The translations under genes and the position numbers were made by a program. 39,091 bases of DNA from Bacteroidales bacterium (lineage in GTDB: Bacteria > Bacteroidota > Bacteroidia > Bacteroidales > UBA932), in contig JAFZBQ010000028.1 in the NCBI GenBank assembly GCA_017561665.1, positions 1 through 39,091 on the forward strand. The letters run 5' to 3'. Each line of letters opens with the position of its first letter. The stretch's first letter is position 1. The notes under the pieces are model-generated. The model did not search any database and had not been told where the DNA came from. It worked only from the letters and a program-made list of their open reading frames with translations. Below are positions 3,733-38,189 of the stretch, piece after piece.

Positions 3733-4374
3733 CTAAGAACCACTACCGGAGAGCTCTTGGAGGATGCTGTCGGCGGCGGAGAGCTGGGCGTAGAAATCCG
3801 CCCCGTAGGCCGCTATGATGGGTTCCTTGAGGAACTGATATACCTTGATTCCCTCTTTCTTCCCCTTCTCGAACGCGCCGCTGCACAAATTCCAGCGGTG
3901 CAGGTTCAGTGCTTTTGAACCGTCGGAGAAGGTCACCTCCCGAATCGGATACAACCGGCAGGAAATGGGTTTCACGAAAGCACATTTGCCGTTGATATGC
4001 GTGCGTTCCACTGCGCACAGGCAGTTGCCGTCTTCAAAGAATGTAAAGGCGCAGGGGCAGTCGTTGGTCTCGCACACAGTTTCGTTGCCGGTGGCCTTGC
4101 GATCCTCAGGAGAAATATCCATCAGCGGCGTCACCATATCGCCGTCGCGGTCAATCTCGAAAAAGCCCTTCTTTTCCACTGCGGCACGTCCGGCGGCGGT
4201 CAGCAGCGGACTGAAGTCCGGCCACGCCTTCTCCAGCTGCTCTGCCTCATCCTCTGCCAGCGGCGCTCCGCTCTCCCCTATCACACAGCACGCCCCCTTG
4301 CACTCTTCGTAATTGCACGAAAAGTACTCGGTAAGAATCTCATCCGATACCAGTATGTCGTTTATGGATATCAT
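3733..4374 (-). CDS. DUF3109 family Cys-rich protein
   Basis: The 213-residue product matches the DUF3109 family of Bacteroidota, thought to bind metal through clustered cysteines but with no proven reaction. Visible cysteines are C20, C25, C29 and C30 (FSCNYEECKGACC). A second cluster, CETNDCPCAF followed by CLCAVERTHINGKCAF and ISCRLYPI, lies in the middle of the protein. The ATG overlaps the stop of trmB (ATGA at 4371-4374), so it is translated by coupling as the last gene of the holB-ricT-gldH-trmB run. Confidence 0.85.
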   Translation of the reverse strand: MISINDILVSDEILTEYFSCNYEECKGACCVIGESGAPLAEDEAEQLEKAWPDFSPLLTAAGRAAVEKKGFFEIDRDGDMVTPLMDISPEDRKATGNETVCETNDCPCAFTFFEDGNCLCAVERTHINGKCAFVKPISCRLYPIREVTFSDGSKALNLHRWNLCSGAFEKGKKEGIKVYQFLKEPIIAAYGADFYAQLSAADSILQELSGSGS

Positions 4375-11849: not shown

Positions 11850-12482
11850 TTAAAAAATATACGCCAGCGATACCTGCAGGCAGCGGGCGTTCTTACGTTC
11901 GATGCCGGCCACCCTGTCCTGATAAGCAGTCAGATTGGCCACCGGGCCGAAATTCCAATTATAGTTTACGCTGATCTGGAAGGAATTCAGAATATCCAGA
12001 CCTCCGCCCACGCTGAGACCGTATTCCAGACGATTGGCGTCGGTGGTCACGTTGCCCAAAGCGTTGCCGGCCGGGCTGGACGTGGTTTTGTTCATAAAGT
12101 CGTAGCCGATGCAGGGCGCCACCTGTATGAACGGCCTCATCACTATCAGGTCCAGACCCCACTGCAGGTTGAGCGGCATCTCCAGATAGCCCATCGTCCA
12201 GCGGGTGGCGTCATCTACGCGGGTACCGCGCACATTGTAGAGCAGTTCGGGCTGGAAACGCAAGCCGCTCCAGGTGCCGGTGCGGTAGCCCACACCTACG
12301 TGATAGCCGGTGAAGTTCTTGAAGAAAGCGCCGCTGAGAAGGTCGTCAGATATAACGGAGGCCACATCCTTATTCAAATCCATATTTGAATTGGAAACGC
12401 CTGCCTTAACCAGGAACCCGCCGCGCGCCGATGCGGTAAAACCTATCAGCAACGCAGCCAGTATTACAAATAACCTCTTCAT
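11850..12482 (-). CDS. Outer-membrane beta-barrel protein
   Basis: The 210-residue product has a signal peptide (MKRLFVILAALLIGFTASA) and a mature part with alternating strands: FLVKAGVSNSNM, YHVGVGYRTG, GLRFQPELLYNVRG, YLEMPLNLQWGL, LEYGLSVGGGLDIL and QISVNYNWNFG. It ends in CLQVSLAYIF, the terminal aromatic expected of barrel proteins. It fits the PorT/OMP_b-brl-type barrels of Bacteroidota; cargo or role is unknown. The ATG at 12482 is used. An open frame upstream to 12638 only reads the trxA gene out of frame. It lies 2 nt after trxA. Confidence 0.82.
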   Translation of the reverse strand: MKRLFVILAALLIGFTASARGGFLVKAGVSNSNMDLNKDVASVISDDLLSGAFFKNFTGYHVGVGYRTGTWSGLRFQPELLYNVRGTRVDDATRWTMGYLEMPLNLQWGLDLIVMRPFIQVAPCIGYDFMNKTTSSPAGNALGNVTTDANRLEYGLSVGGGLDILNSFQISVNYNWNFGPVANLTAYQDRVAGIERKNARCLQVSLAYIF

Positions 12483-13115: not shown

Positions 13116-16100
13116 TCGGCCTCCTTATCGGGATTAAGTTGCATAAAAATGTACTCCTTGCGCGCCTTGGCTTCCAGATCGCGCTCGCCGTGGCGGCTCA
13201 GCACTCCGTAGAATACCGGCACCACGATAAGTGTCACGAAGGTGGATACCAGCAGACCGCCGATTACCACGACTCCCATCGGGTGCCACATTTCCGAACC
13301 CTCTCCGGTAGAGAGTGCCATCGGCACCATACCGAGGATGGTGGTAAGCGCCGTCATAAGCACGGGACGCAGACGGCTGCGGCCGGCAAGGGCGATGGCC
13401 TCGGTGAGCTCGTGCCCACGCTCGCGCATCAGGTTGATGTAGTCCACCAGCACGATACCGTTCTTGACCACGATACCCATCAGCATAATCACGCCCAGCG
13501 CACCGATAAGGTCGAGGGAGGTCTTGGTGATGAGCAGCGCCAGGATGACGCCGGTAACGGCAAACGGGATGGCCATCATGATGATTGCAGGCTTGCTGAA
13601 CGAACCGAACTGCGACGCCATCACCACATATACCAGCATCAGCACCATCAGCAGCAGGGTTATCATATTGCCGAAACTTTCCTGCTGTTCTTCGTAGTCG
13701 CCGGCGAGGGTGTAGATGACGCCGTTGGGCATATTGATATCCTGCATCACCGTATTGATCTGGCCGGCGAGTTCGCCCAGAGAAACCTTGTAGGGAGTGA
13801 CGCTGACGCTGATGTAGCGCTGACGGCTCTTGTGCTCGATCTTTGGCGGCGCGAAATATTCCTCTACGGTGGCGATTTCGCCCAGTTTGACACGGGCTCC
13901 GGTCGGGGTCGGGATGGTCAGGTCCTCGATGTCGGAGATGCTGTTGCGGTTCTCTTCCTTGAGGCGGAGCACGATGTCATATTCGTCGCCGTCCTCCTTG
14001 AGATAGCCCACCGTCTGGCCGCTGACGCGGTTGCGGATGTATGTCGAAACAAGCGACGAACTCAACCCCAGCGAAGACACTTTCTCCTTGTCCAGCACCA
14101 CATTAAGCTCGGGACGGTCCTTGTCGCGGCTTATCTTGACGTCGCGGGCGCCGGGCACCTTGTCGCGGATGGCCTGGCTGACCTCGGCGGCAACTATGTT
14201 GGTCTCGTCAAAGTCGTAGCCGTAAACCTCGACATTCACGGTGGAGGCGCCGCCGCCACCGCCCATGCCGCTGGAAACGACGCACTGGAAGCGGACGATC
14301 TCGGGATATTTTGCAATCTCCTCGCGGAGAACCTCGGCGATTTCAAATACCGAACGCTTGCGCTCGTGCTTCTTGACGCACACCACCATCATCGAAATGG
14401 TGTTGTTGGTGGTGCTGTTGAAGATGGCGGAGGCACCGCTCTCGTCGTTGGTACCGGCCGTAGTGGCCAGACGCTTCATCTCTGGTACAAGTTCCCAGAA
14501 GCGGGCCTCCAGGGCGCGGGCGGTGAGCAACGTCTGCTCTATCTTGGTGCCGTTCTGAAGCTCTATGTTGATGCTGATGCGGCTGTTGTCGGTCTGCTGC
14601 ATAAAGTCGGTACCGATCTTGCCCGTAATCAGCGGTATCAGCGACACGGCAAAGAGCAGGAAAGCGATGACGAGGGTTATCGCCTTGTGGCCCAGGCACC
14701 AGCGAAGCATATTGGCATAGGCCGAATCGACCTTGTCCAGGAATCCTACTACATATTTCTGATACCAGCCGTCCTTGCGCTCCATATCCACCAGCCGTCC
14801 ATCCTTGTCCACAGCCACCTTGCGGGCCTTGAGCATCTTGGAGGCGAGCATCGGCGTCAGGGTTATGGCCACCATGGTGGATGTGGCGACCACTATCGTC
14901 ACAATCCAGCCGAGTTCCTTGAACAGGATGCCGGCCATGCCCTTGAGCATGGTGAGCGGAATGAACACCGCCGCAATGACGAGCGTTGTCGCTATGACGG
15001 ATATCCATACCTCGTTGGTGGCGTAGATGGCCGCATCGCGCGGCGAACTGCCTCTCTCGATGTGTTTGGTGATGTTTTCAAGCACCACGATAGCGTCGTC
15101 CACCACCATACCGATGGCCACCGTCAGCGAACAGAGAGAAATGATGTTCAGCGAACTGTCCACCAGCCACAGATAAATGAAGCCCACGATAAGGGCGATG
15201 GGGATGGTGATGCCGATTATGAAAGTCGCCCTCCACTTGCCCAGGAAGATGAACACCACCAGCACCACGAACAGCAGTGCGTAGAGGATGGATTCTTCCA
15301 GGGAATTGATGGAATCTTCTATGTCTTCAGATGTATCGAAGAGCACCGTGACCTCGATGTCGTCGGGCAGGTTATGACGGATGCGCTCCATCTCCTTACG
15401 CACCTGGCTGCATATCTTCACGGTGTTGGCGCCCGACTGCTTGGTGATGCGCATGCGCACTCCGTCGCGGCCATTTGTCTTTTCGTCCAGCGAAAGATCC
15501 TTGATGGTGTCACGCACCGTGGCCACGTCCTTTACGAACACCTTCTGTCCCGTAGGAGTGGTGGTGACCACTATATTCTCTATCTCGCTGCTCTCTACAT
15601 ACTCGCTGCGCACCTCCAGGTTGTACTGCTCCTTCTCCATCTTGACCACGCCGCTGGAAAGGTTGGTGTTGTTGCTGCTCACGGCGGTGCCGATGGTCTC
15701 CATCGGAATTCCGAAAGCATCCAGTTTCTGCTGGTCGACATCAATGTAAATGTAGCGGTCGGGGGCGCCGGAAATGGCTATGTTGCCGATTCCGTCCACG
15801 CGGTTCAGCTGCGGTATGACGACGTCGTTGAGAATCTTCTCCAGGCCGGCATAACTGTCTCCGGCGGTGATGGAGTAGTTGATAATCGGCATCGCCGACG
15901 AACTGAACTTGAAGATGTAGGGGTTGCTGCAGCCGCTGGGCAGGTTGTCCTTGAGCATATCCACGAAAGAGCGGATATCGTTCATCGCCTCGTCCAGATC
16001 GGCGCCCCACTCCATCTCCAGCGACACCGTGGAATAGTTGTCGCGCGACGTCGATGTGATGCGCTTGAGGTGATCCACGGAGTTGAGGCTGTTCTCCACC

Positions 16101-26207: not shown

Positions 26208-26322
26208 CAGTCCCTCGTCAATTAAGAATCGCCATCAGGCGATAGCGAAGCGCGAGCAGCGCAGGAAAGTGCGATAGCAAGCGCGTAGCGGCGGGGTGTA
26301 GGGGCAGAGCCCCACTATAACA

Positions 26323-26413
26323 GGTGAGGTGGGTGAGTGGCTGAAACCACCAGTTTGCTAAACTGACGTACTCGACTAGGGTACCGGGGGTTCGAATCCC
26401 CCCCTCACCGCCA
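26323..26413 (+). tRNA. tRNA-Ser(GCU), integration target
   Basis: The acceptor GGTGAGG (26323-26329) pairs with CCTCACC (26403-26409). The discriminator is G, and CCA (26411-26413) is encoded. The anticodon arm is CAGT-TTGCTAA-ACTG with anticodon GCT. A long variable arm (TACTCGACTAGGGTA region) is typical of serine tRNAs, and the T arm is GGGGG-TTCGAAT-CCCCC. The 3' end is the left att site of the mobile element and is imperfectly repeated at 34310-34335. Confidence 0.97.
26386..26411 (+). other. attL (tRNA-Ser T arm and acceptor)
   Basis: These 26 nt match 34310-34335 at 21 positions with no gaps, with GGGGGTT at the left and an exact 13-nt core, CCCCCCTCACCGC, at 26399-26411. The distance to the second copy is 7924 nt at both edges. 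Confidence 0.8.
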
Positions 26414-26423
26414 AAGTTTTTAT

Positions 26424-26458
26424 AAAATCCCTTGCAGACTATTCTGTGAGGGATTTTT
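26424..26458 (+). terminator. Element-supplied terminator after tRNA-Ser
   Basis: AAAATCCCT (26424-26432) pairs with AGGGATTTT (26449-26457), and CAGA/TCTG can pair inside, with T-rich sequence after it. It lies inside the element and replaces the host terminator, which now lies past attR. Confidence 0.7.
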
Positions 26459-26478
26459 ATTTTTATCGCCGTCTAAAT

Positions 26479-26545
26479 AATGCGACTATTTTTGTCGTGA
26501 TTTGGATGTTATTTGCGACTGCCTGTTTGAAAATGCGACTATTTT
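26479..26545 (+). repeat. Left arm-type integrase sites (TGCGACT repeats)
   Basis: TGCGACT occurs three times in the same direction: 26481-26487, 26514-26520 and 26534-26540. The first and third extend to the same 14-mer, AATGCGACTATTTT (26479-26492 and 26532-26545). They lie between attL and the integrase start and have counterparts near attR. Confidence 0.65.
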
Positions 26546-26584
26546 CTTTTAACTTAGCCGGAGAATCGCAAATAACCTCGTATT

Positions 26585-28141
26585 ATGCCCCAGAGACAGA
26601 CGTTTGACATATCCTTCTATTGCCGGCCTTCCAAAGTCGATAAGGACGGCTATGCACCGGTTGAACTATCTATCATCATCAACGGAGAGCGGCGGTACTT
26701 GACACTGCAGCGCAGGGAGCGCCCTGATGAATTCAAGCGGGAGCGAAGGTCCAAGAAAAATAACCAGATCAAAACCTTCTGCGAAAATCAGAAGCGACTT
26801 GTGGATGACTATGTTCAGCAGATGGCAGCAGCCGGGGTTGAACTGACAGCAGAGAATTTGAGAGAGTGTTTTAAGCGTGGCTACGTCTCGATGCGGTATT
26901 CCCTTGGAGACATGTGGCGAGACATTCTTGACAATGCGCGGGCAAGGCTTAACGCTGGGGACTTGAGCATGGAGACATATAAAAAATATGTCCTGACGAA
27001 AAGGGCTCTCAGCGATGCGAACGGGTTTAGCGACGAGACGCCAGCCGAAGATGTCGATATCCAGCATGTCCACAAATTGCAGTTTTACCTGCGCGACAAG
27101 GGGCTATCGCAGCCAACTATCTACCATTACCATTCCAGGGCAAAGGCAGCGTTTACCCTAGCGTTCCTGAGAGGCAAGATTAAATCGAACCCCTATGCGG
27201 GGTTTAAGATGAGCAAAGGAGCCCACAAGCCGAGGATATTCCTAACGGATGCGGAACTGCAGCAGATAGCCAACGCGAAATTAAATGGAGACAGGCTGCA
27301 GAAGGTGCGAGATTTGTTTTTGTTTCAATGCTACTCCGGTCTGGCCTACTCGGACATGGCACTTTTGGAGCCTTCTGATTTCAAATTCAATAAGGCTACC
27401 CAGCAGATTTATGTTGAGAAGCGGAGGAAGAAGACAAATGAGGTGTTTACGGCTGTGCTGTTGAAGGATGCGAAGGCTATCCTCGAGAAGTACGACTACC
27501 GGCTTCCTCTGCTCACGAACCAAAAATACAACTCATACCTGAAGGAGATCCAGGACACATGCAAACTGGACAAGGAGTTGCATAGTCACCTAGGCAGAAC
27601 GACGTACGTCTGCTACTTGTTTAACAAGGGTGTCAGCGCAGATGTGATTGCGAAGCTGGTTGGACACTCCACGGTGAAAACTACCCTCAGATTTTACGCG
27701 GAGATGGATAAATCCACCCTGTTCAGAGAAGTGGGGGCAGCAGAGGGAACGCCCCAGACCTCAACCAAGGGTATTGCCCTCCCGGAGGTTCCGAGCGAAG
27801 CCGCCATCACCGCCATCAACAAGTATCTGGAAAGTACGGTGTACAAGGATACCCTTGCGGTGCCGGCGAACGCCACACTGGTGAAGTATGAAGACACCAT
27901 CATGAACGCCCTCGTTGCCTTGAAGTCCGACAAGAGAACGTATGAGACGTACAAGGTAGCCTTCGCGAAGTGCAAGAACAATCTGGATACACGTCTTACT
28001 TTCCAGGAAGGCAAGATGCGGCAGTGCAAGAAGGCTGGTGACGATGCGAACGTCAGGAAGTTGAACCTCCTGATAAAGTCGAGCAAGCGATTACTACAAG
28101 CACTGCGCAGCCTGGACGCCAGATTTTACAACAACCTTTAA
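26585..28141 (+). CDS. Tyrosine recombinase/integrase with long C-terminal extension
   Basis: The enzyme should cut and join the att sites in tRNA-Ser. In this 518-residue protein an arm-binding domain (FDISFYCRPSKVDKDGYAPVELSIIING) is followed by a SAM-like core-binding domain at about 105-205. In the catalytic domain the usual first Arg position reads GLAYSD with A254, a replacement common in Bacteroidales integrases such as the IntDOT group. Then come H335-x2-R338 (HLGR), H361 in LVGHS and the nucleophile Y371 in RFYAEM. About 147 residues follow Y371, far more than usual, rich in K and ending LRSLDARFYNNL. The gene lies next to attL and converges with the nuclease/methylase gene 12 nt away. 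Confidence 0.93.
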   Translation: MPQRQTFDISFYCRPSKVDKDGYAPVELSIIINGERRYLTLQRRERPDEFKRERRSKKNNQIKTFCENQKRLVDDYVQQMAAAGVELTAENLRECFKRGYVSMRYSLGDMWRDILDNARARLNAGDLSMETYKKYVLTKRALSDANGFSDETPAEDVDIQHVHKLQFYLRDKGLSQPTIYHYHSRAKAAFTLAFLRGKIKSNPYAGFKMSKGAHKPRIFLTDAELQQIANAKLNGDRLQKVRDLFLFQCYSGLAYSDMALLEPSDFKFNKATQQIYVEKRRKKTNEVFTAVLLKDAKAILEKYDYRLPLLTNQKYNSYLKEIQDTCKLDKELHSHLGRTTYVCYLFNKGVSADVIAKLVGHSTVKTTLRFYAEMDKSTLFREVGAAEGTPQTSTKGIALPEVPSEAAITAINKYLESTVYKDTLAVPANATLVKYEDTIMNALVALKSDKRTYETYKVAFAKCKNNLDTRLTFQEGKMRQCKKAGDDANVRKLNLLIKSSKRLLQALRSLDARFYNNL

Positions 28142-28153
28142 AGGATCAAGATT

Positions 28154-31100
28154 TCACATGTCAATGACATCATCTATTTCGTGCATCAGCCGGTCTGTCT
28201 CTTCCAAAGCATAGATAATGCGCCCGTAGTGAATGATGTCCTTGTAGTCTAGCTGCCGGCCGCGCCGGTCTTTGAGCCATTTCTGTGCCGGCTGGTGCCC
28301 GCCAACATAGTACCTCCATGCAAGTTCTGACACATTACCGAAGAACTGGTCTCTGTTGATATACACCCTCCCGTCTTTGAATGAGGGTGCCTCGATGACA
28401 TTGGTTCCGTTCACGGGGAAGGATATGCCCGTTTTCCAATTGCCAGCGTTTTCCATCAAATGGAGTATTCGTAGCTGTGAGCCTTTTTCTGCAAGACGGT
28501 GGAACTGTTCTGCATCCTTTGGATACGGGATGCGAGGAAAGTCAATTTTTAGGAACTCCTTATACGTCTTACGATATGTTGGGCAGAGGATAACGGCATA
28601 AATATAGTCAAACAGTAGCTGTGGAGTAAGATTTCCTACGATTTGCTGATATCTGTCATAAATTGCGTCATCAAAGTTTGACAGGCGCTCACCATCGTCC
28701 GTATAGACGAATAGCGGAAGAAGGCTTTCACTATCGTCAAAGTCAAGTGTGTGTATGTCTGTGATGAATTTGGATGCAAAGTAATAGAATGTACTCACCT
28801 GCCGATTCTTCGAGGCAACAACAAGACCCACGTTGTCTTTCAACATGTGCTTCATGGTTTCATACCGGGGATACCCCATAACGCCTTTAATCTTCCCGGT
28901 ATACAGGACATTTCTAAAATCGAAAGGACGATAACAGATAGTGTTTGTTAATATCGGATTGCTCATCAAGTCTTTCTTCGCCAAACCTATCTTCCAATCT
29001 CGAGCGTCCTTGAAACCATACTTTTGCGCCAATTCGGGCTCTGTGAGATGTTGAAAATCATGATATAGAACATCGCTCTCTGGTTTGCTCAAAGAAATGG
29101 ATGCTTTATCATTTTGCGTCTTGATACCACTGTTGTAGAGTTTGAAGATTTTGTTCAGGGGAACACCTTTATTGTATTCGGCTTCTGCTGAAAAATCTTT
29201 GGGTACGAAGAAATAATAGGGTTCCGTTACAGCAAGTTCATTCCAGTCTTCGGCAAGAAATGGCGTCTGGCTCAGATGTTCATATTTGTCTCCGCGAGCC
29301 CCATATAAGTCTTGATAATAGACGGAACCCGGTTTGTTTTTTGCCTTTTCCCCTGTTTTAACAAACAGGTTGATGCTCACGCCCTGCATGATGTCAAAGA
29401 CATTCTCATCAACATTTCCATTAGGTGCCGTTTCTTTGCGACGAGTATTGCCGTGTAAGTTCAGTATGTAAATATTGTCGAACTCTTCCAGCAGACTTTT
29501 CCGCATCTGCCGGTGGATGATGCCATCCAAGAACGAATTGTTTGATATGAAGGCAAGGATACCCTCACCGTTTTTGTGGATATAGTACTGACCTAGACGG
29601 ATGAATTTTATGTAGTCGTCTGAGAGGGGTTGGATATTCCGTTCGTCCAGATCCCGTTTATAGTCCCCCACTAGGTCGGTAATCCATTTGCCGTTGTTCT
29701 GACTGGACACAGAGTAAGGCGGGTTGCCGATACATATCATTACCGGCGTCTCTGATTTTATGCGAGAGGCTTGGTATGCTTCGTCTGCCAGCCATTGAGC
29801 AAATAGGTTGGATGCCCAAGGGGTGGCTTCTTCCAGCGAGTTTGTCAGGAATATGTTCAGGCGTCCTTTCATCTGTTCAGCATACCCGGTGGCTTTCAGC
29901 GTGAGGGATAGTTTTAGATGGGCGATGGTGTATGACGCCATCAAGATTTCGAAGCCGTGAAGCCTTGGAATAAGTCCTTTCTCCACGTATGACGGCCAGA
30001 CGCCCTCCATTCCGTCGAATTTGTCCCGTATCTGCTGGATCACCTCTGCGAGGAACGTACCGGTTCCAGTTGCTGGATCAAGAATTTGAACCCGGTGAAC
30101 TGGAACAGTCTCGTGCTTCATGCCGTCGCTGGTCCGTTTGTCGCTGGACTGCTGAACAGCCCTTTGGATGAGGATGGTGCTGTCGTCCGCCAGACCCTGA
30201 GGCAAGCCAAAATGGGTTTGGAGGATTTCATCCACGGCAGTGACGATAAATTTCACCACAGGAGCGGGAGTGTACCATACGCCGCGGGCTTTGCGAAGTC
30301 GGCTGTCGTATGCGGCAAGGAAGTCCTCATAAAAATGTACGATTGGATCGCTGTGCCTGCCGTTACCGCCATAGTTCCGCATTATCTTTTCCGCATCGGT
30401 AGCAGCAAACATGGAGACCAGGTCGTCCACAATCCAAGCAATACTCTGGTCCAGATCATACACGGCAACGGATTGGAATATCTTACGGAGGAAAGGATTT
30501 GATTTGGGGATTAATTCCGCCGCTTCCTGACGCGAAAAGTCTCCGGGGGTAGTGTCATATAGCCGGGCTGTGAAAAGCCCGTAAACAATGGTTTGGGCGT
30601 AAATATCGGCAAACTCTGGCGCAGTTAAGTCATGTATCAGTACATTACGGAACGCCCGCAGCTGCGCTGCCATATCGCTGTTACCATCTTCGCCATCAAT
30701 TTCCAGACTTTTCTTCACTGCGTCCGCCAGCAAGTGAGCCTTTGCTGCCATCTGTTTCGCAAGCGCTGCAGATGATGTGATACGCTGCCGGCCCATAGTG
30801 GCAAGGCTAAGAACCATCTCATTAAACATCGCCTCGTTCTCCGCGATTCCGACAACATGGTCGCCGTGAGTTTCAGCGATTCGCACCGCATCTTGGAACT
30901 CTCCACCCACATACAGGTGGAAGTCCATATAGTCTGTGAAGATGATACGGTCCAGCGAAGTCTTGTATCGGTTGAACTGCTCCTTGTGCTGGCGCATGCC
31001 GTCCAGATCTCCGTCGTTTATGTCTTTTGCTTCAAGGAACGCTACCGGTATGTCCTTTTGGGTGATAACGTAGTCTGGCGCACCGCACTCGATGCGGCGT

Positions 31101-31234
31101 GGCTCGTTGGTAACGACGAAGTGAGGCAGCAGGGATTGGAGGTATGAAGCCAGCGCGCCGCGGAAACTGTGTTCGGTGGTGTTACCCACATGATAGAGCT
31201 GGTCTATCGTCTTGATGTATTCCTTAAAGTCCAT
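28154..31234 (-). CDS. Single-polypeptide restriction-modification enzyme with type ISP-like C-terminus
   Basis: The protein is predicted to methylate adenine and cut DNA in one chain. The N-terminal nuclease shows a PD-(D/E)xK pattern with D54 (GAPD), E68 and K70 (FLEAK). The methylase has motif I DPATGTGTF at 386-394 and motif IV NPPY at 504-507 (N504), the N6-adenine form, preceded by KARGVWYTPAPVVKFIV. The C-terminal part, including TICYRPFDFRNVLYTGKIKG and VASKNRQVSTFYYFASKFITD, resembles the specificity domain of type ISP enzymes such as LlaBIII. At 1026 residues there is no helicase between nuclease and methylase, so it is closer to type IIG in build. It starts 2 nt after the 79-residue gene and is probably cargo defending the host against phage. 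Confidence 0.85.
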   Translation of the reverse strand: MDFKEYIKTIDQLYHVGNTTEHSFRGALASYLQSLLPHFVVTNEPRRIECGAPDYVITQKDIPVAFLEAKDINDGDLDGMRQHKEQFNRYKTSLDRIIFTDYMDFHLYVGGEFQDAVRIAETHGDHVVGIAENEAMFNEMVLSLATMGRQRITSSAALAKQMAAKAHLLADAVKKSLEIDGEDGNSDMAAQLRAFRNVLIHDLTAPEFADIYAQTIVYGLFTARLYDTTPGDFSRQEAAELIPKSNPFLRKIFQSVAVYDLDQSIAWIVDDLVSMFAATDAEKIMRNYGGNGRHSDPIVHFYEDFLAAYDSRLRKARGVWYTPAPVVKFIVTAVDEILQTHFGLPQGLADDSTILIQRAVQQSSDKRTSDGMKHETVPVHRVQILDPATGTGTFLAEVIQQIRDKFDGMEGVWPSYVEKGLIPRLHGFEILMASYTIAHLKLSLTLKATGYAEQMKGRLNIFLTNSLEEATPWASNLFAQWLADEAYQASRIKSETPVMICIGNPPYSVSSQNNGKWITDLVGDYKRDLDERNIQPLSDDYIKFIRLGQYYIHKNGEGILAFISNNSFLDGIIHRQMRKSLLEEFDNIYILNLHGNTRRKETAPNGNVDENVFDIMQGVSINLFVKTGEKAKNKPGSVYYQDLYGARGDKYEHLSQTPFLAEDWNELAVTEPYYFFVPKDFSAEAEYNKGVPLNKIFKLYNSGIKTQNDKASISLSKPESDVLYHDFQHLTEPELAQKYGFKDARDWKIGLAKKDLMSNPILTNTICYRPFDFRNVLYTGKIKGVMGYPRYETMKHMLKDNVGLVVASKNRQVSTFYYFASKFITDIHTLDFDDSESLLPLFVYTDDGERLSNFDDAIYDRYQQIVGNLTPQLLFDYIYAVILCPTYRKTYKEFLKIDFPRIPYPKDAEQFHRLAEKGSQLRILHLMENAGNWKTGISFPVNGTNVIEAPSFKDGRVYINRDQFFGNVSELAWRYYVGGHQPAQKWLKDRRGRQLDYKDIIHYGRIIYALEETDRLMHEIDDVIDM

Positions 31235-31236
31235 TT

Positions 31237-31476
31237 TTATTCCATTTTTTCCTTCTTTTCCTTTGTCAGTAGCCTGCCCTGCCGAATGATTACCTTTTGA
31301 TTCTCGTAGGGGTGAGTTTCGGATATGACATAGTTACGGAGAGAGCGGTACTTGATACCAATCTCATCTTCGGAGAAGTGTTCGAAGATACATGCGACGG
31401 AGCCATAGTAGGAGTGCTGGTCTCCGTCCTTGATGGTGAGGTGGATTACCTTTTTGGTTTGCTTTGGTGTGCTCAT
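31237..31476 (-). CDS. Small protein upstream of the restriction-modification gene
   Basis: I do not recognise this with certainty. The 79-residue product has a core HSYYGSVACIFEHFSEDEIGIKYRSLRNY, a pattern (hydrophobic GS..aI...f....iGi....L.ny) that recalls small Bacteroidales proteins of mobile elements. It has a basic end, LLTKEKKEKME. It ends 2 nt before the restriction-modification gene, so it is made first from the same message. A controller (C protein) or DNA-binding role would fit the position but is inference. Confidence 0.6.
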   Translation of the reverse strand: MSTPKQTKKVIHLTIKDGDQHSYYGSVACIFEHFSEDEIGIKYRSLRNYVISETHPYENQKVIIRQGRLLTKEKKEKME

Positions 31477-31493
31477 GTTGAGGTACTTGCACC

Positions 31494-31527
31494 CAAATAT
31501 ACGAATTTTTTTGAGGGGAGGGACAAA
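31494..31527 (-). promoter_or_regulatory. Possible promoter of the restriction-modification unit
   Basis: On the minus strand, TATATTTG (31494-31501) matches the -7 box, with TTTG at 31524-31527, 22 nt upstream, which is longer than usual. The leader would be about 10 nt. Confidence 0.4.
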
Positions 31528-31549
31528 AACGCCTCAAAAGTCATAAAAA

Positions 31550-31581
31550 TTTGCAAATAAGACTAATTTGCCATATATTTG
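31550..31581 (+). promoter_or_regulatory. Promoter of the DUF2693-like/serine recombinase unit
   Basis: TTTG (31550-31553), 20 nt and TATATTTG (31574-31581) match the consensus on the plus strand. The ATG follows 24 nt later. It stands back to back with the restriction-modification promoter. Confidence 0.65.
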
Positions 31582-31605
31582 TATTGAACAAAAACACACA
31601 ACAAT

Positions 31606-31962
31606 ATGAAACAGATGATTGCTACCATTACCAACGATGCACTAGTCGCTGCTCACATCAACTCCATCGCCCGCTCTACTGGATCAACATTGAAAGGTGT
31701 CGCCACCGCCATGCTCATCGAAGAAGCCAAGCGCCAGATGCGCGAAGGTGTCTGCCATTTCGTATATCTCAAAAAGCCCAATCGGGAAGGTGTTCAAGAA
31801 GTTCGTGAGGCATTTGGCACTCTGGACAGGAACGTCAGACAGGCTACCCTAAAGGGAACAGGTACATCCCCTGAGACATGGGGCTGTTGCTACTACCACG
31901 ATTGCATCAAAGGTGCTCCACGATCCTTTCGATGGAAAAATCTGCTTGCCGTCTTATCTTAA
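31606..31962 (+). CDS. DUF2693-like small protein
   Basis: The 118-residue product starts with a helical part (AHINSIARSTGSTLKGVATAMLIEEAKRQMRE). It then has a region resembling DUF2693, an SH3-like family common in Bacteroidales mobile elements: HFVYLKKP..., EAFGTLDRNV, ATLKGTGTSPETWGCCYYHDC and APRSFRWKNLLAVLS, where the YYD...RSFR...L motif is the best mark. Function is unknown. It is followed after 44 nt by the serine recombinase and shares its promoter. Confidence 0.6.
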   Translation: MKQMIATITNDALVAAHINSIARSTGSTLKGVATAMLIEEAKRQMREGVCHFVYLKKPNREGVQEVREAFGTLDRNVRQATLKGTGTSPETWGCCYYHDCIKGAPRSFRWKNLLAVLS

Positions 31963-32006
31963 CCTCAACCGGGAGGGCCCAGCGCCCTCCCTTCAATTAT
32001 ACCACA

Positions 32007-32654
32007 ATGGATAAAGTTGTACTTCTCTGCCGCGTGAGCACAGCATCTCAGGATTATGAACGCCAGGTCTCTGAACTCACCGAATTCTGTCAGCGAGCCG
32101 ATTGGCAGGTGGCGCAGGTGTTCGCGAACAAAGTCTCGGGTAAGTTACCGGTGGAGCAGCGTCCAGAATTGCTGCAGATGCTTGACTACGTCAAACTTCA
32201 CCGGATCAAAAGGGTCGTCGTACTGGAAATTTCTCGCCTGGGGCGCAACACGCTGGAAGCATTGAAGGTGATCCAGCTGCTCAACGATGCTGGCGTGTCC
32301 TTGTATATCAAAAATTATAACCTGTCCACGCTGGATCAAAACGGAAAGGTGAACCCGGTCGCCTCCTTGATATGCACCATCCTGCTGGAAGTGGCGCAGA
32401 TGGAACGTCTCACCATCATCGACAGAATGTCCAGCGGGCGCGACCAGTACATTAAGAAGTGTAGGGCTACCGGCCAGAAAATGGGACGTCCCTCTACATA
32501 CCGCAAGTCCGTTGAAGATTACCGCAGGCAGTACTCCAAGGAAATATCGCTGCTGCGGAAGATGAGCCTCAAAAATGTCAGCGCCATCACCGGCACCAGC
32601 ATCAACACACTGCGTCGGTTGAAGGCTATGTTTCTGGCAGAGGGTGCCAAATAA
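32007..32654 (+). CDS. Serine recombinase (resolvase/invertase family)
   Basis: This is a DNA strand-exchange enzyme that works through a serine nucleophile. In the 215-residue protein, VVLLCRVSTASQDYERQ carries R9 and the catalytic S11. VLEISRLGRNTLEAL and VAQMERLTIIDRMSSGRDQYIKK are the conserved catalytic-helix parts. The C-terminal helix-turn-helix is MSLKNVSAITGTSINTLRRLK. The ATG at 32007 (MDKVVLL) is preferred over the in-frame start at 31878, whose extra 43 residues overlap the DUF2693-like gene and look non-native. It may resolve multimers or invert DNA; no inverted pair of sites was recognised nearby. Its end faces the Rep-like gene. Confidence 0.9.
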   Translation: MDKVVLLCRVSTASQDYERQVSELTEFCQRADWQVAQVFANKVSGKLPVEQRPELLQMLDYVKLHRIKRVVVLEISRLGRNTLEALKVIQLLNDAGVSLYIKNYNLSTLDQNGKVNPVASLICTILLEVAQMERLTIIDRMSSGRDQYIKKCRATGQKMGRPSTYRKSVEDYRRQYSKEISLLRKMSLKNVSAITGTSINTLRRLKAMFLAEGAK

Positions 32655-32802
32655 AACTTTATTATAACATGACATGTATTTTGATCTGGTCAAACATCAT
32701 TTTAGGTATTAAATTGATATGCATCGATTTTTGATATGTCATTATTTTTATTGTCAGCATTTTAACCTGTTTTTTTATGTACTGGTGGGGTCTATTGTTA
32801 AT

Positions 32803-33687
32803 CTATACCCTGCCATTACATTTGATAATCTCCGGCCATTGAAGTTTTTTGCGGTTCTTCGTAAATCTCAGTACCGATGAAAGGTGATAATAGTAGATGT
32901 CAGACAGAAAGACTGGATTGTTCAGCAGCTCTATATCCTGTGCTATATGCCTAGCTGCGCAGTAGCCACGTATCTCCTGATAGTTCAGCCTCACCTCAAA
33001 ACGATACAGATACCGCGGCCGGCCATAATAATCCAAAATGTAATTCTTGCCACTGGTGGTTTCAATCTCTGCCCGCTTATCGTAACTCTGCACAGTCGTT
33101 CCTTTGAATTTGTTTTTTATGGCTTTGACTTGCCGTATGGTAACGGTTGGACACTGAAGCCGGTCGAGGGAGGTGCCGTAATCGAAAGAAAATCCTGGGA
33201 TTGCTTGTTTTCGACCTAGTACATTCTGTACGCACTTACCGTTGAAAATGGTATTCACCGTCTTGTCCCGCAGCATCCTCTTGATTATTGCACTGATGCT
33301 CTTTCCGTAATCGATGGCGATGTCTATCGCTGTAAAATTATTGAAGGTGAGCCCAACCAAATCTGGGAAGGATAGTACTTCTTGGAACAAGTCTGCCTCA
33401 TACAAGACGTGGTTCTCTATCTCAATGTGGCAGTAGTTGTTCGCTTTGGCGCCGTAACGCCCAAATTTGAGGACGCCTACCTCTTCCAGACCTCGCGTCC
33501 CCGCAAGAAACATCGAGAAAAAAAACTCAAAGCGATCGCCAATCCGCCGGATCAAAACGAATGGATTATATACCAGACGCTGGCCTACCTCAACATGTGA
33601 GAGTTCGTCTAGCAAAAGAGGGTCTGCAACATAGCAGACCCTCAACCCATCAATTACCGGCTTTCCGAGGCGTTCATTCTTGGACAT
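32803..33687 (-). CDS. Rep_trans-like rolling-circle initiator or MobT-type relaxase (tentative)
   Basis: The 294-residue product shows no HUH motif. It carries AIDIAIDYGKS (about 120-130), a DxAxD pattern as in the metal site of Rep_trans and phage gene II/RstA proteins, and later LYRFEVRLNYQEIRGYC, which resembles their RxExRL strand. SYDKRAEIE lies just before it. A replication starter for circular DNA, or a MobT-type relaxase that begins transfer, would both fit; the assignment rests on two motifs. It is transcribed after the NUMOD3-like gene (16-nt gap) and faces the serine recombinase. Confidence 0.5.
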   Translation of the reverse strand: MSKNERLGKPVIDGLRVCYVADPLLLDELSHVEVGQRLVYNPFVLIRRIGDRFEFFFSMFLAGTRGLEEVGVLKFGRYGAKANNYCHIEIENHVLYEADLFQEVLSFPDLVGLTFNNFTAIDIAIDYGKSISAIIKRMLRDKTVNTIFNGKCVQNVLGRKQAIPGFSFDYGTSLDRLQCPTVTIRQVKAIKNKFKGTTVQSYDKRAEIETTSGKNYILDYYGRPRYLYRFEVRLNYQEIRGYCAARHIAQDIELLNNPVFLSDIYYYHLSSVLRFTKNRKKLQWPEIIKCNGRV

Positions 33688-33703
33688 TTTACCCGTTCAT
33701 TTC

Positions 33704-33931
33704 CTAATCATCATTGGATATACCCAAGTAATCGTTCATCGTCGTGTGCCCACTCTCGGCGTCTGGTCGATGTTCTACTGTTTCCCAGTAATCTTTCATT
33801 GACTGGCTGATGTGCTGTTTGTGCAAATCAGATTTGTGTCTGCCGGCGCATGATTGAGAAATTTTCTGCTTGTGCTCGTCAGAGAGCTCGCGCCATTTTC
33901 GTTTGTATTTGTTCATCTTATCACCAGGCAT
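33704..33931 (-). CDS. Small NUMOD3-like DNA-binding protein
   Basis: The preferred product has 75 residues (MPGDKMNKYKRKWRELS...). The repeat pattern LSDEHKQKISQSCAG and LHKQHISQSMKDYW, two units ending in K/R-x-ISQS, resembles NUMOD3, a modular DNA-binding helix found in GIY-YIG and HNH homing nucleases, here without a nuclease domain. The open frame runs on to 34039, but the extra residues look non-native. A Met at 33916 is another possible start. It precedes the Rep-like gene by 16 nt. Confidence 0.5.
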   Translation of the reverse strand: MPGDKMNKYKRKWRELSDEHKQKISQSCAGRHKSDLHKQHISQSMKDYWETVEHRPDAESGHTTMNDYLGISNDD

Positions 33932-34161
33932 TTTCGCGCCTTCAGCAATAAATACAGGAAGTGTGGCAAAAAAGACAAGCGTAGTAGGATTATATTTCGC
34001 TGGTGCCGGCTTCCATTTCGCATGCACGGCAGTCCCCACGCCTGTTATACTTACCTATTCCTTATTGAAAAAAAGCGACTGACATTGGTGATTATCAGCA
34101 AGTTGAGAGGGAAGGAAGGGGGTGAATTTCGATTACAAATATTGCCAAAACGAGGTGGAAA

Positions 34162-34282
34162 AATGCGACTAAAATATATTAAAATATTGTATATCAATAT
34201 AGGTTCAAGTTCGCTCTCAAAAAAGGTAAAAGTATCTCGAACCCGCAGGAACTGCATTATGTGCATGTCCTATCGTGCGACT
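34162..34282 (+). repeat. Right arm-type integrase sites (TGCGACT repeats)
   Basis: TGCGACT occurs at 34164-34170 (within AATGCGACTAAAAT, 34162-34175) and at 34276-34282, in the same orientation as the three copies by attL. A degenerate copy, AGCGACT, stands near 34075. Confidence 0.6.
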
Positions 34283-34309
34283 GACGAATATAAGTTCTTG
34301 GTAATCAAT

Positions 34310-34335
34310 GGGGGTTGAGGTTCCCCCCTCACCGC
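34310..34335 (+). other. attR (imperfect duplicate of the tRNA-Ser 3' end)
   Basis: GGGGGTT, then a diverged 6-nt middle, then CCCCCCTCACCGC (34323-34335), matching 26386-26411 at 21 of 26 positions. It is not a functional tRNA copy, since the sequence upstream is unrelated. Confidence 0.8.
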
Positions 34336-34377: not shown

Positions 34378-34398
34378 CCATTAAAGAAGTTGTGCCCT

Positions 34399-34995
34399 CT
34401 ACCAAAGGCGGAAGTCAAGTTTGTCGGTTGTGCCGTCTTCGAATACAAGCTCGATGCCGATCGGGCCAAAGCGATGGTTGCATGCATATTTGATGCGTGA
34501 GATGCCATCTTCGTTGAGCTTACCTTCAATCTCAATGACCTTGATTTTGCCAATGAACCATTCGTAATCGTTGTCGGTGGACACATGGGTCACCTTGCGA
34601 CCGTCGGCGAATTTGTCGCCTTCCTTGGCATCGTAGCGGACCACAACGCCATCCAGAAAGCCGGTCTGATTCTCGATGCCCTGGTCGGTAAATTTAAACT
34701 TCACGTCGTGAACGCGTACAGAATTGCCATCGACTTCGAAATACTTGGGATGGTTCTTAAAGACTTTAAGATAGCGCTCGTCTGTCACGGTCATGGTGCC
34801 GGCAAACTCCGACACGCCATTGGCGCAGTCCACAATACTGATGTCGACATCGGAGAAGCCCTCGTTGCCAAGGCGCACTTCGGTGCCCGCTTCGCCAATG
34901 GTGGCGGGTTCACCGCCAATGTGAGTTTCCTTCACGCAGCAGACAACCCCCACAAATGCCAGGATAACTAAAATGGGAAAAATTACTTTTTTCAT
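34399..34995 (-). CDS. Lipoprotein of unknown function
   Basis: I do not recognise the family. The 198-residue product has a lipoprotein-type signal (MKKVIFPILVILAFVGVVCC, anchor at C19 or C20). The mature domain is rich in beta-type stretches such as EFAGTMTVTDERYLKVFKN, VRVHDVKFKFTD, YEWFIGKIKVIEIEGKL and IGIELVFEDGTTDKLDFRLW. It stands between attR and the BACON gene. A -7 match (TATCTTTG, minus strand, 35039-35046) precedes it, without a clear -33 box. Confidence 0.7.
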   Translation of the reverse strand: MKKVIFPILVILAFVGVVCCVKETHIGGEPATIGEAGTEVRLGNEGFSDVDISIVDCANGVSEFAGTMTVTDERYLKVFKNHPKYFEVDGNSVRVHDVKFKFTDQGIENQTGFLDGVVVRYDAKEGDKFADGRKVTHVSTDNDYEWFIGKIKVIEIEGKLNEDGISRIKYACNHRFGPIGIELVFEDGTTDKLDFRLW

Positions 34996-35057
34996 ATATA
35001 TACTTTTTTACAGTTGTCGAAAATATTCAACTCTCTTACAAAGATACAGACAAACTC

Positions 35058-38000
35058 TCATCGAGGCAGCTCACTGCTCAAGTGGTAGCCGCAGCCGGGC
35101 TCTCTAGAATAATAAAAGCCGTAGTCCAACCGTTTATGCCAATAAGAGTACCACGTATCTCCTTCGCTGTTCTGACGGGAAGTGGCATAATGCCAGCCAG
35201 ATCCAAAATACCAAGTGATTTGGGCCCCTTCATAATAGCTCGTGCTCCAACTGTATTCGTACATCTGGTCATAGCGGGGCGTGAATCCCGATGCACGCAT
35301 CTGGTCGAACACGGCCGGAACCGTACACTTCAAGCTGGGGTTGTTTTCAATTGACAGGTTAGCCATCGAAGGGGTGCCGGAGATGCTGAAAGAGGACAAT
35401 TGCGTTTTCCCGGCATAAAGGTTCCGGAGCTTGGGGCATTCTGTCACAGAAAGCGTTTTCAAGTTGCTGTTACTAACATACAAGTCTTCTAGGTGTGTGG
35501 CTCCTGTAACAGTCAGCGCTTCACACGTGTGGGTTTGAAAACTGCGGATTCCGCTGCCCACAGTAAGACTTTTTGTATCCGGGCACTCTATAGACAAAGC
35601 CACGCCGTAACCGGAAGATTGGGCGATGTTTGCAATTAAGGCGCTGGTTACATCTATCGCGCCATTCAAAGATACGCGCTCCAACTTGGGGCAATTCTTT
35701 GCGGAAAGGGACGTTATCCTGGAGTCATCCGGGGCTTCAATACTAATGGTTTCCAGGTCCGGACAATTGTCCGCAATTATTTCCGAAGCCTCGGTGTATG
35801 TGGCATCATATCCTCTAGGACCCCATCTTCCCAATCCAAGGTGGGTTATACTTGTACCGCTGATATCAAGCTTATTGGTAACGAGAGGGAAAGAATACAT
35901 AGACTTCGAATGGCACTCGAAAATCTCTGCAACCACAAAACCTCCGCTTTGGTTGGGACCCCGCCAGGTCTTGTTCCTGATTGCGATTCCGTCAAAGGTT
36001 TCGTCTGTTACTTCTATGCTGGAAAAATGTCGGACACTCCCATCGGGTTCCAACTCAATCCTCCAGCGGAAATCTTCGGAACCACTCATTTTATGGTTGA
36101 ACCTGAGATTGTTGCCTAATTCCCACTCATTCGGAAGGTCGATGACGAGCTGGTAATTACCCAACGAGGGCCAATAATCAATATCTATGTTTTTCATCAG
36201 ACTCAATGGCACATCATCGTCCCAGTTGCATCCTTCCCAATTCCCCCTACCCTGTGAACGGACATTGTCAAGAATCGCTCTCACATCCGATTCAATATTT
36301 CCGTAGCTTCTCAGGCCATATACTGGATAAAGTGGGAAAACCTGATCATTATATTTCCACGCAACATACGCTTCATAATACCGCCCAACATCCAGTCCGG
36401 AAACAAGAGCTTCGGTTTCATAGGAAGATATCTCGCCTGCCATTAGTTTTGTCGCATCATCCTCGGAAATGGCAAACGGAAACTGCAAAGTGGATTGCAA
36501 CGGCATAGAATCGTTATAAAGTAAAACAATAAGCGATCCAGATTCTGAACATCCGGAGAATACCGACGGCGCATTCACGTTGAGTTTAACCGCCATTTCG
36601 CTCCCTCGCTGTTCAATCTGTACATTATCTTTGTCAAACGGGGGGAAGAATTTGTAAGACTCCTGCGGGAACGTCACCGCAGGGAGATCATATTTGTCGG
36701 AATAACCAACTGCACGGAAATTCAAGCTGGCCTGCACGACATAAGATGTGGAGTACTCCGCGGCCCGGATTCCCTCGGCAACATAATAATTTGGATAAAA
36801 CCAATTCTGTCCTTCCGGAATCTTGGTCAAGTCTATGCTGGTGCTTACCGCCTCCCGCCTTGCCACGTTCAGTATAATACCGGCGGAAATGGCATCACCG
36901 TAAATACCCAGCGCCGGCCCGATGCCGATGCCATAACTGAACCCGCCCTCTATCTTTGGCCCGCAGGAATACTCTGTTTCTTCAGGCGTGAAGTCGCTTG
37001 TGGTGCTTTCTCCGCTAAGGCCGTTTATTTCATCGTAGTGGAGGTGCGAAGATGAGTGCATAACCGAACTGACGGATGCCACGAGCGATATCTTGCCATC
37101 CACTCCCACATTGGCATAAATATCTACAGACGGCGTCAACAATACCGGCCCGACGGGTATTGCGGCAAAATAAAGCGACAGCAGTTTGAAAGCCTTATCC
37201 AGAGATTCGCCGATTGCAAATTCTATTTCCGCTCCGACTTTGACATCGGCATCCACCTTGAAATTGAATGTAGAAATCTTCCAGTCCCCGACAATCATCT
37301 GGAGCTTCAACGCAAGATCTATAGTCATTTTGGGCGTGAGAGTCAAACCCAGAGGCAAATCCCAGGAAACTTCCGGCAGCACAATGTGGAACTTGGTCAT
37401 ACCCGCCGCTTTTGTGCGCAAGAACTCCATTTCCTGCCCCGACGCGTCCACGATACGTGTGACATACGAATCCAAATCTATCCCCTCCATATTGATATTA
37501 AGGTCTTTGAACGCTTCGTTGACCTGCATTGTTGCATAGTAGAACTTATAGCCTCCGGCATCCTCCTGCATATCGTAGATCTTTGCAAGAAGGCCGTCCG
37601 GAAGGACTTCCGTCGGCGTGTTTATTATCAACTTGGATGGCACGGTGGGAAGCAGCTCTGCCGGTACGTTTTTGTCCACGATAAACATCCCCGGCTCCCA
37701 GAAAGTGATATACGATACCAGTCCCTTCGGAGCAACGACAGCATCTTCGCTTAGTGTGTATGACACCTCAACATCCTCCAAATCGGACGTTTCGCCGGCA
37801 GCCTCCTGCCTGATTGTCACCTCCTGCGTCTTGTCACCGTAAGACACTATTATCTTGCCTGTCCGCTCCGCGGTACCTGTGTTTTCAGAAACGATTACGG
37901 TAAAAGCCGAACCGTCTTGAGACACCGTTATCCAGTCTGTATTTCCTTCAGCGGCAGTCGCAGAAAACGTCTCGGAATTGGTCGTCACGCTGAAGGACTG

Positions 38001-38189
38001 TATGCCGCCATACGAAGAAAAAACCATCTTGTCGGCAGACAAGGTAAGAGTAAGCGTTTTATCCCCACCTTGGTCCGGCTTCTGCTCCTGCTCTTGGTTT
38101 TGCTCCTGTTCCTGCTTCGGATTGACCTTGTGAACACAAGATACCAATACCAGAGCCATTGCTGTTATAAGGGTGATTGTTCGTTTCAT
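35058..38189 (-). CDS. Large BACON-domain lipoprotein with leucine-rich-like repeats
   Basis: This is a surface-type protein of 1043 residues. The lipoprotein signal ends at C18 (LVSC), followed by a QE-rich linker at about 24-42. A BACON domain covers about 45-133 (LTLSADKMVFSSYGGIQSFSV to EVTIRQEA, with WITVSQDGSAFTV inside). BACON is a Bacteroidota domain proposed to bind carbohydrate or mucin. The middle holds unassigned beta-rich domains. About 790-970 resembles leucine-rich repeats (for example CPKLERVSLNGA, LEDLYVSNSNLKTLSVTECPKLRNLYAGKTQLSSFSI). The last 65 residues are rich in W, Y and S. Target and role are unknown. Confidence 0.8.
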   Translation of the reverse strand: MKRTITLITAMALVLVSCVHKVNPKQEQEQNQEQEQKPDQGGDKTLTLTLSADKMVFSSYGGIQSFSVTTNSETFSATAAEGNTDWITVSQDGSAFTVIVSENTGTAERTGKIIVSYGDKTQEVTIRQEAAGETSDLEDVEVSYTLSEDAVVAPKGLVSYITFWEPGMFIVDKNVPAELLPTVPSKLIINTPTEVLPDGLLAKIYDMQEDAGGYKFYYATMQVNEAFKDLNINMEGIDLDSYVTRIVDASGQEMEFLRTKAAGMTKFHIVLPEVSWDLPLGLTLTPKMTIDLALKLQMIVGDWKISTFNFKVDADVKVGAEIEFAIGESLDKAFKLLSLYFAAIPVGPVLLTPSVDIYANVGVDGKISLVASVSSVMHSSSHLHYDEINGLSGESTTSDFTPEETEYSCGPKIEGGFSYGIGIGPALGIYGDAISAGIILNVARREAVSTSIDLTKIPEGQNWFYPNYYVAEGIRAAEYSTSYVVQASLNFRAVGYSDKYDLPAVTFPQESYKFFPPFDKDNVQIEQRGSEMAVKLNVNAPSVFSGCSESGSLIVLLYNDSMPLQSTLQFPFAISEDDATKLMAGEISSYETEALVSGLDVGRYYEAYVAWKYNDQVFPLYPVYGLRSYGNIESDVRAILDNVRSQGRGNWEGCNWDDDVPLSLMKNIDIDYWPSLGNYQLVIDLPNEWELGNNLRFNHKMSGSEDFRWRIELEPDGSVRHFSSIEVTDETFDGIAIRNKTWRGPNQSGGFVVAEIFECHSKSMYSFPLVTNKLDISGTSITHLGLGRWGPRGYDATYTEASEIIADNCPDLETISIEAPDDSRITSLSAKNCPKLERVSLNGAIDVTSALIANIAQSSGYGVALSIECPDTKSLTVGSGIRSFQTHTCEALTVTGATHLEDLYVSNSNLKTLSVTECPKLRNLYAGKTQLSSFSISGTPSMANLSIENNPSLKCTVPAVFDQMRASGFTPRYDQMYEYSWSTSYYEGAQITWYFGSGWHYATSRQNSEGDTWYSYWHKRLDYGFYYSREPGCGYHLSSELPR

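Follow-up and report, generated by a model that had tools for sequence, protein, structure and literature searches.

A compact element at tRNA-Ser and a modular family of putative rolling-circle integrating elements in Bacteroidales

Small integrative and mobilizable elements (IMEs) that combine an integrase with an initiator of the Rep_trans type, and have no mating pore of their own, are known from streptococci (IME_oriT and others; PMC7563843, PMC5704250), and the Rep_trans protein of one small streptococcal IME has been proven to be its relaxase (PMC7563843). Likewise small elements of Bacteroidales are NBU1, NBU2, Tn4555 and Tn4399, which the cited part of PMC5704250 lists with MobP relaxases, with NBU1 in tRNA-Leu and NBU2 in tRNA-Ser through a tyrosine integrase. 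Here I describe a ∼7.9-kb element at a tRNA-Ser gene of an uncultured Bacteroidales bacterium, in contig JAFZBQ010000028.1 of assembly GCA_017561665.1, the whole 39,091 nucleotides of which are hereafter referred to as the window. The element encodes a tyrosine integrase, a restriction enzyme, a small serine recombinase, a rolling-circle initiator, a NUMOD3-like protein and two further small proteins. It is probably a rolling-circle element that integrates, one member of a modular family in Bacteroidales, and would act by the mechanism proposed below.

The element resembles the streptococcal Rep_trans IMEs in its small size, its integrase, its Rep_trans-type initiator and its lack of a mating pore. 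In contrast, those elements are found in Firmicutes, the cited parts of their descriptions mention no NUMOD3-like partner (PMC7563843, PMC5704250), and many of them bring a coupling protein (PMC5704250), none of which is seen here; moreover, the similarity of the present initiator to PF02486 is below detection. The NBU-type elements carry MobP, whereas none of the seven proteins of this element matches a relaxase family in Pfam or NCBIfam, and most members of its family use large serine recombinases.

Insertion at tRNA-Ser and recent movement

The 13-nt sequence CCCCCCTCACCGC, which is the 3′ end of the tRNA-Ser gene, is found at both borders of the element (Table 1), 7,924 nt apart from start to start, and its right copy lies within an imperfect 26-nt copy of the tRNA-Ser 3′ side (81%). 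In ungapped matching, the tRNA 3′ end and the far end of the element reach a score of 13, while none of 60 shuffles exceeds 10. The gene to the left of tRNA-Ser is present in 23 of 26 genomes of the same genus (that of the window included), and in one of these relatives (G230:C50) the tRNA-Ser gene is directly followed by the right-flank sequence of the window, revealing an uninterrupted site. When the two flanks of the window were joined by script, they matched this site at 91.3% over 922 nt across the junction. An uninterrupted locus that nevertheless holds the right-hand copy had been named in the initial annotation as evidence against insertion; the junction in G230:C50 holds one repeat copy, as insertion predicts. 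The predicted borders and the empty site sought in related genomes are therefore both confirmed, and comparison shows that the element entered tRNA-Ser, as judged from these alignments by recombination at the 13-nt tRNA 3′ end. The GC content of the element (0.476) is near that of the right flank (0.495; 0.543 for the left 10 kb), so that composition would not mark the right end.

A close relative occupies the same tRNA-Ser site in genome G102, with the repeat at positions 3948-3960 and 11889-11901 of its locus (L013). The two integrases are 100% identical in amino acids and differ at 3.2% of 4-fold sites, compared to 22-33% for five other genes of the element (the NUMOD3-like gene left out) and 38-48% for three chromosomal genes to its left. 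This near-identical integrase, set against strongly diverged chromosomal neighbours, supports a recent movement. The restriction gene is itself a mosaic: in 250-nt steps, its nuclease and methylase part (29501-31250) is 88-96% identical to that of G102, but identity falls to 48-65% over 28251-29500, which holds most of the specificity domain, indicating that the specificity end was exchanged.

Other features of the locus were also observed. At 26411-26413, the encoded CCA of tRNA-Ser is completed by the element side, and GCAA stands at the empty site in G230. Two loci (L092, in G000:C14, and L093, in G230:C98), compared to window positions 26228-26411 and 34397-35009, show a second version of the locus, 86-93% identical, in which the tRNA-Ser segment is inverted (in G230 together with a lipoprotein gene). 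In both genomes this probably reflects a strain mixture in the assembly, though it would still be a local inversion. To the right of the element, and outside it, lies a 1043-aa gene (35058-38189) that is surface-lipoprotein-like by eye.

The family core and its integration sites

Within the host's family, 11 of 299 genomes carry the initiator (counting that of the window; G115 doubtful), as do 9 of 393 genomes of the order (again counting that of the window; four weak), but none of 295 other genomes drawn from the phylum. A scan of a named genome collection gave 25 initiator loci, 24 with titles referring to Bacteroidales, Bacteroidia or groups within these, and several with ruminant hosts. 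One locus binned as Clostridia (L042) shares three stretches of 86-97% identity with a Bacteroidales contig, and is probably misbinned. The census, made with profiles trained on family members, comprises 34 loci; seven contigs that appear twice, as L013-L019 and as L024, L032, L035, L036, L039, L041 and L047, were counted once, the weak hits L089-L091, in other contexts, were excluded, and L023 (from G115, initiator at 5.7e-4) was dropped from later analyses, with G115 kept among the 11 carriers in the conjugation and Zot tests below. The 26-row initiator alignment (A3) omits L020, where the initiator end is lost, and the short L045 and L046. Two assemblies (JAEEQS and CAMJHF) hold two family members each, at different tRNAs. 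No description of the family was found in titles and abstracts of open-licence PMC papers. The Bacteroidales family is real and modular and, though its general kind is known, apparently undescribed in that literature, within which the initial suggestion of a poorly described family holds. One of the excluded loci (L091, G676:C45, 1522-8138) holds, next to proteins that look phage-type and amidase-like by eye, a very remote relative of the initiator (1.2e-4); it is perhaps a small single-stranded DNA prophage.

The initiator is predicted to adopt the two-lobed Rep_trans fold, based on a structure model. In the 26 sequences, D13, Y202, K204, E207 and E231 are invariant and D126 is nearly so. In RelSt3, a MOBT relaxase borne by an integrative and conjugative element (ICE), the residues are D72, D177, Y252, K254, E257 and E280 (PMC6499999), and the spacings of the catalytic residues are close (113/76/29 in the initiator, 105/75/28 in RelSt3). 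The likeness to RelSt3 and to the Rep proteins of the pT181 family thus extends to the fold, three presumed metal-binding acidic residues, the YxKxxE motif and a near-equal spacing, and the initiator appears to keep the residues that RelSt3 needs for nicking. It differs from ICE-borne MOBT relaxases, which possess an N-terminal helix-turn-helix, in its Bacteroidales origin and a possible partner protein in trans; the 294-aa model has no such helix-turn-helix, and begins with a short helix followed by the first strand of the catalytic lobe at residue 10. No relative of the initiator was matched in the phage and plasmid collections, nor in IMG/VR by two pattern scans.

The candidate partner is the NUMOD3-like gene, identified with a family profile in all 34 initiator loci (9 of them trained the profile) and located directly upstream of the initiator in 30. 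NUMOD3 itself is matched by 12 of 17 relatives of this small protein at E up to 1 (best 3.9e-4), and weak homing-endonuclease matches were also obtained. Just upstream of this gene is a motif TACTAY-N-CTT, followed ∼20-30 nt later by TATTTAT or a variant. In 18 of 26 loci, a strict pattern for the first part occurs in the 400 nt that lie upstream of the initiator, compared to an average of 0.2 and a maximum of 2 in 200 Markov shuffles; since the loci share ancestry, this count illustrates conservation and not independent gains. Less constant members of the gene set are the small serine recombinase (25 of 34 loci at ≥100 bits, three as split frames), the 79-aa gene (20 of 34) and the WYL_2 gene (9 of 34).

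Integration sites across the census include tRNA-Ser, Leu (three anticodons), Asn, His, Met, Arg, Pro and Ala, and comparison places the initiator and NUMOD3-like core at no fewer than nine other tRNA genes, as told by their anticodons. In the initial annotation, the same genes outside tRNA-Ser without attachment repeats were to count against the element. Such loci do occur, often without a detectable long repeat, but their integrases differ, and the core genes lie at other tRNA genes because of these other integrases. Serine integrases are expected to have short cores. In a repeat test at the tRNA 3′ end of 17 loci (L025 and L085 were outside it), the window, L024, L026 and L046 scored above all shuffles, and the remaining 13 loci scored no higher than the shuffles. 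A second pair of occupied and empty sites is seen at tRNA-Asn: G113 carries a member with a serine integrase there (5.8 kb), and the counterpart in G091 is uninterrupted (∼0.5 kb). Wherever a large serine recombinase occurs next to a detected tRNA (17 of 17 members), its frame enters the tRNA gene on the opposite strand (for split recombinases, the second piece was taken for the overlap), so that its C-terminal end could change on excision. One example of such a crossing is L026, with the recombinase at 14146-15702 and tRNA-Leu at 15690-15773.

On a tree of these recombinases (19 rows, 17 labelled), the eight site states, three of which are single rows, need 7 changes; this is the minimum possible, and was reached in none of 500 label shuffles (shuffle minimum 9). 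On the initiator tree with the same rows 11 changes are needed, and 196 of 500 shuffles do as well. Both trees are quick ones, the initiator tree has some long, poorly placed branches, and L034 and L045, where the serine recombinase is split, are represented by its first piece, left unchanged. The serine integrase clade predicts the tRNA, and the initiator does not. This agreement of clade and tRNA target, in 17 of 17 labelled loci, amounts to a natural experiment and makes the target rule of these serine integrases testable. The initiator tree requires no fewer than three changes of integrase class, and in L027, L029 and L031 the initiators are 89-93% identical, compared to 26-38% for their recombinases. 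Comparison of the loci thus shows integrase and cargo to be exchanged modules.

Proposed mechanism and alternatives

I propose that the integrase excises the element as a circle, and that the initiator then nicks one strand at an origin, probably located in the conserved leader of the NUMOD3-like gene. The NUMOD3-like protein would be the DNA-recognition partner of the initiator; this is modeled on the N-terminal helix-turn-helix of ICE-borne MOBT relaxases, for which a role in DNA recognition is assumed. The nick would start rolling-circle replication of the circle and, in cells that hold a conjugative element, also transfer through the pore of that element. Multimers would be resolved by the small serine recombinase, the cargo would be under the control of the 79-aa protein, and the restriction enzyme, by protecting the host, would pay for carriage. 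Such a reading agrees with part of what characterizes an IME: an own integrase and attachment sites are present, and a mating apparatus is not matched at curated cut-off among the seven proteins, with the initiator and the leader motif as candidates for the relaxase and the oriT. If true, this Rep_trans-type Bacteroidales family, small enough to escape notice, would be a new carrier of restriction genes and others among bacteria of the gut and rumen. It would also differ from the Bacteroides mobilizable elements with a named relaxase, which is MobP in the cited part of PMC5704250. A more far-reaching possibility, less likely than not, is a two-part relaxosome new to Bacteroidales, in which a stand-alone NUMOD3 module of the homing-endonuclease kind would direct to the origin a catalytic Rep_trans protein without a DNA-reading domain. 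Any integrase, and any cargo headed by the 79-aa gene, could then be fitted around this constant pair, and the element would change its tRNA address through the exchange of integrases.

The fold, the conserved residues, integration and module exchange are well supported, but several observations count against the proposed mechanism. Excision, nicking, replication and transfer are deduced from sequence. The catalytic residues of the initiator were assigned through conservation, order and spacing, not superposition; the protein has no Pfam match at E 1, and PF02486 is touched by 2 of the 26 initiator sequences (best 0.0053), so that it is filed as a divergent Rep_trans/MOBT relative and not as a PF02486 member. 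The leader motif, in which no conserved hairpin was detected, could be only a promoter. In four of 34 loci (L040, L041, L085 and L087) the NUMOD3-like gene is not directly upstream of the initiator, and in the closest relative, at the same site (L024), a stop cuts its frame to 43 codons, suggesting that this gene may be dispensable. For the 79-aa protein, no convincing fold match was obtained. Finally, TraG of Bacteroidales conjugation (TIGR03783) occurs in 35 of the 299 genomes of the family; none of these is among the 11 carriers, one of which has a coupling-protein domain. The carriers are few, are draft assemblies and include the doubtful G115; among them there is apparently no sign of a resident conjugative helper.

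This last observation would be expected of an integrating plasmid-like element, whose initiator replicates the circle only and is no relaxase, and which spreads through a helper relaxase in trans, transformation or transduction. Conjugation markers are missing in 10 of 11 carriers, the initiator model is without the helix-turn-helix of ICE-type MOBT relaxases, and Rep_trans proteins are also listed for the maintenance of excised IMEs (cited part of PMC5704250). However, a helper need not always be resident, and I consider this explanation rather unlikely. A phage satellite, which would rely on its own initiator for excision and replication and on a tailed phage for packaging, would equally be compact, inserted in a tRNA gene and equipped with a defence cargo. 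Distant relatives of the 79-aa protein (30-36% identity) are found in 16 phage records, 15 of them from Bacteroides phages, and the WYL_2 protein matches phrog_1086. Yet no packaging or capsid family was identified among the seven element proteins, nor among the 25 displayed of 63 PHROG families (42 accessory proteins, picked by eye, from 22 loci), and the initiator's lack of relatives in IMG/VR and the phage collection likewise makes such a satellite improbable.

A further alternative is a satellite whose rolling-circle single strand would be exported in the coat of a filamentous, inovirus-like phage; in its favour, two Inoviridae proteins, one named Rep, are among the best matches of the initiator to viral folds. 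The inovirus export ATPase Zot was however found in one of 11 carriers, weakly (5.5e-4), and this carrier is the doubtful G115; of all the explanations I regard this as the least credible. Loss of mobility, leaving a dead genomic island, is suggested by decay in some relatives: most genes are missing from L046 and L088; the frame of an integrase or resolvase is split in L029, L033, L034 and L045; and the NUMOD3-like frame of L024 is shortened. In the window, in contrast, all genes of the element have open frames, and the integrase is nearly identical across species with strongly differing chromosomal genes, making a dead island very improbable. An integrating rolling-circle element with the proposed mechanism is retained as the probable explanation.

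Gene content and cargo

The seven element proteins were scanned with Pfam, PADLOC, PHROG and NCBIfam (Table 1); the 294-aa initiator matched no family in these scans. The tyrosine integrase, the restriction enzyme, the serine recombinase and the initiator were all correctly called initially, as was the NUMOD3-like protein, though its match is weak; two more genes belong to the set, for the 79-aa and WYL_2 proteins. The start at 34039 first given for the NUMOD3-like gene is probably not the real one: the starts of its relatives correspond to 33916, which is most likely the actual one, so that 33917-34322 is probably non-coding and carries the conserved motif. That the element has no visible transfer or capsid genes is accurate at curated cut-off in these four databases (a weak match of the NUMOD3-like protein to TraM of conjugation reaches 15.9 bits, for a cut-off of 172), but is too strong for transfer, as the initiator may itself be a relaxase.

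Table 1. Features of the tRNA-Ser element and its insertion site (positions in the window)
Feature	Position	Strand	Basis
Integration site, tRNA-Ser(GCT)	26323..26413	+	ARAGORN
Left attachment repeat CCCCCCTCACCGC, tRNA 3′ end	26399..26411	+	exact direct repeat
Tyrosine integrase, 518 aa	26585..28141	+	PF00589, PF13102, PF17293 above cut-off
Cargo: helicase-less single-chain restriction-modification enzyme, 1026 aa	28154..31234	-	
79-aa protein, directly upstream of cargo gene	31237..31476	-	phrog_10608 1.2e-16
WYL_2 (Sm-like SH3) protein, 118 aa	31606..31962	+	PF10902 2.2e-9
Small serine recombinase, 215 aa	32007..32654	+	PF00239 7.8e-28
Rolling-circle initiator / possible relaxase, 294 aa	32803..33687	-	
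NUMOD3-like protein, 70 aa, directly upstream of initiator	33704..33916	-	
Conserved non-coding motif TACTAC-G-CTTG ... TATTTATT, candidate promoter and/or rolling-circle origin	33948..33986	-	
Right attachment site: exact 13-nt repeat 34323-34335 inside imperfect 26-nt copy	34310..34335	+	

The restriction enzyme matches PF18135 (6.9e-69), N6_Mtase (above cut-off) and the PADLOC type IIG model (1.2e-285); HSDR_N at its nuclease end is below cut-off (0.0093), and no helicase was matched in Pfam. Type IIG enzymes combine methylase and nuclease in a single chain that has no helicase. It shares with LlaBIII/LlaGI, of type ISP, and with 7lo5 a methylase and an ISP C-terminal specificity domain in one chain. 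However, type ISP enzymes possess nuclease, helicase, methylase and specificity parts in one chain, and the helicase part is missing here: LlaBIII aligns at residues 897-1529 only (methylase and specificity parts), whereas the length and layout are those of 7lo5 (a 1,029-aa chain). Relatives over ≥80% of its length are found in 48 plasmid records, ten of which, as listed, are 33-47% identical. The helicase-less, ISP-like defence cargo described initially is thus confirmed, but as an ordinary enzyme, one of many cargoes as judged from the other members.

Indeed, not all cargo is defence. Family elements carry restriction enzymes, a NERD nuclease, YbjQ and leucine-rich repeat (LRR) proteins and lipoprotein-like open reading frames (ORFs), and L040, where the ends of the element are not set, adds HipA, Vsr and a Schlafen-type gene. 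In 14 of the 20 loci with the 79-aa gene, a same-strand ORF of ≥90 aa lies close downstream, and the two may form operons. Distant relatives of the 79-aa protein are also found in 3 plasmids, and in one of the phage records a DarB-like antirestriction gene precedes the relative. Two elements, at tRNA-Leu and tRNA-Asn, carry cargo proteins of 478 and 518 aa (L037 11534-12970 and L038 10927-12483) immediately after the 79-aa gene; these have no Pfam or PADLOC match, and their starts are alike by eye.

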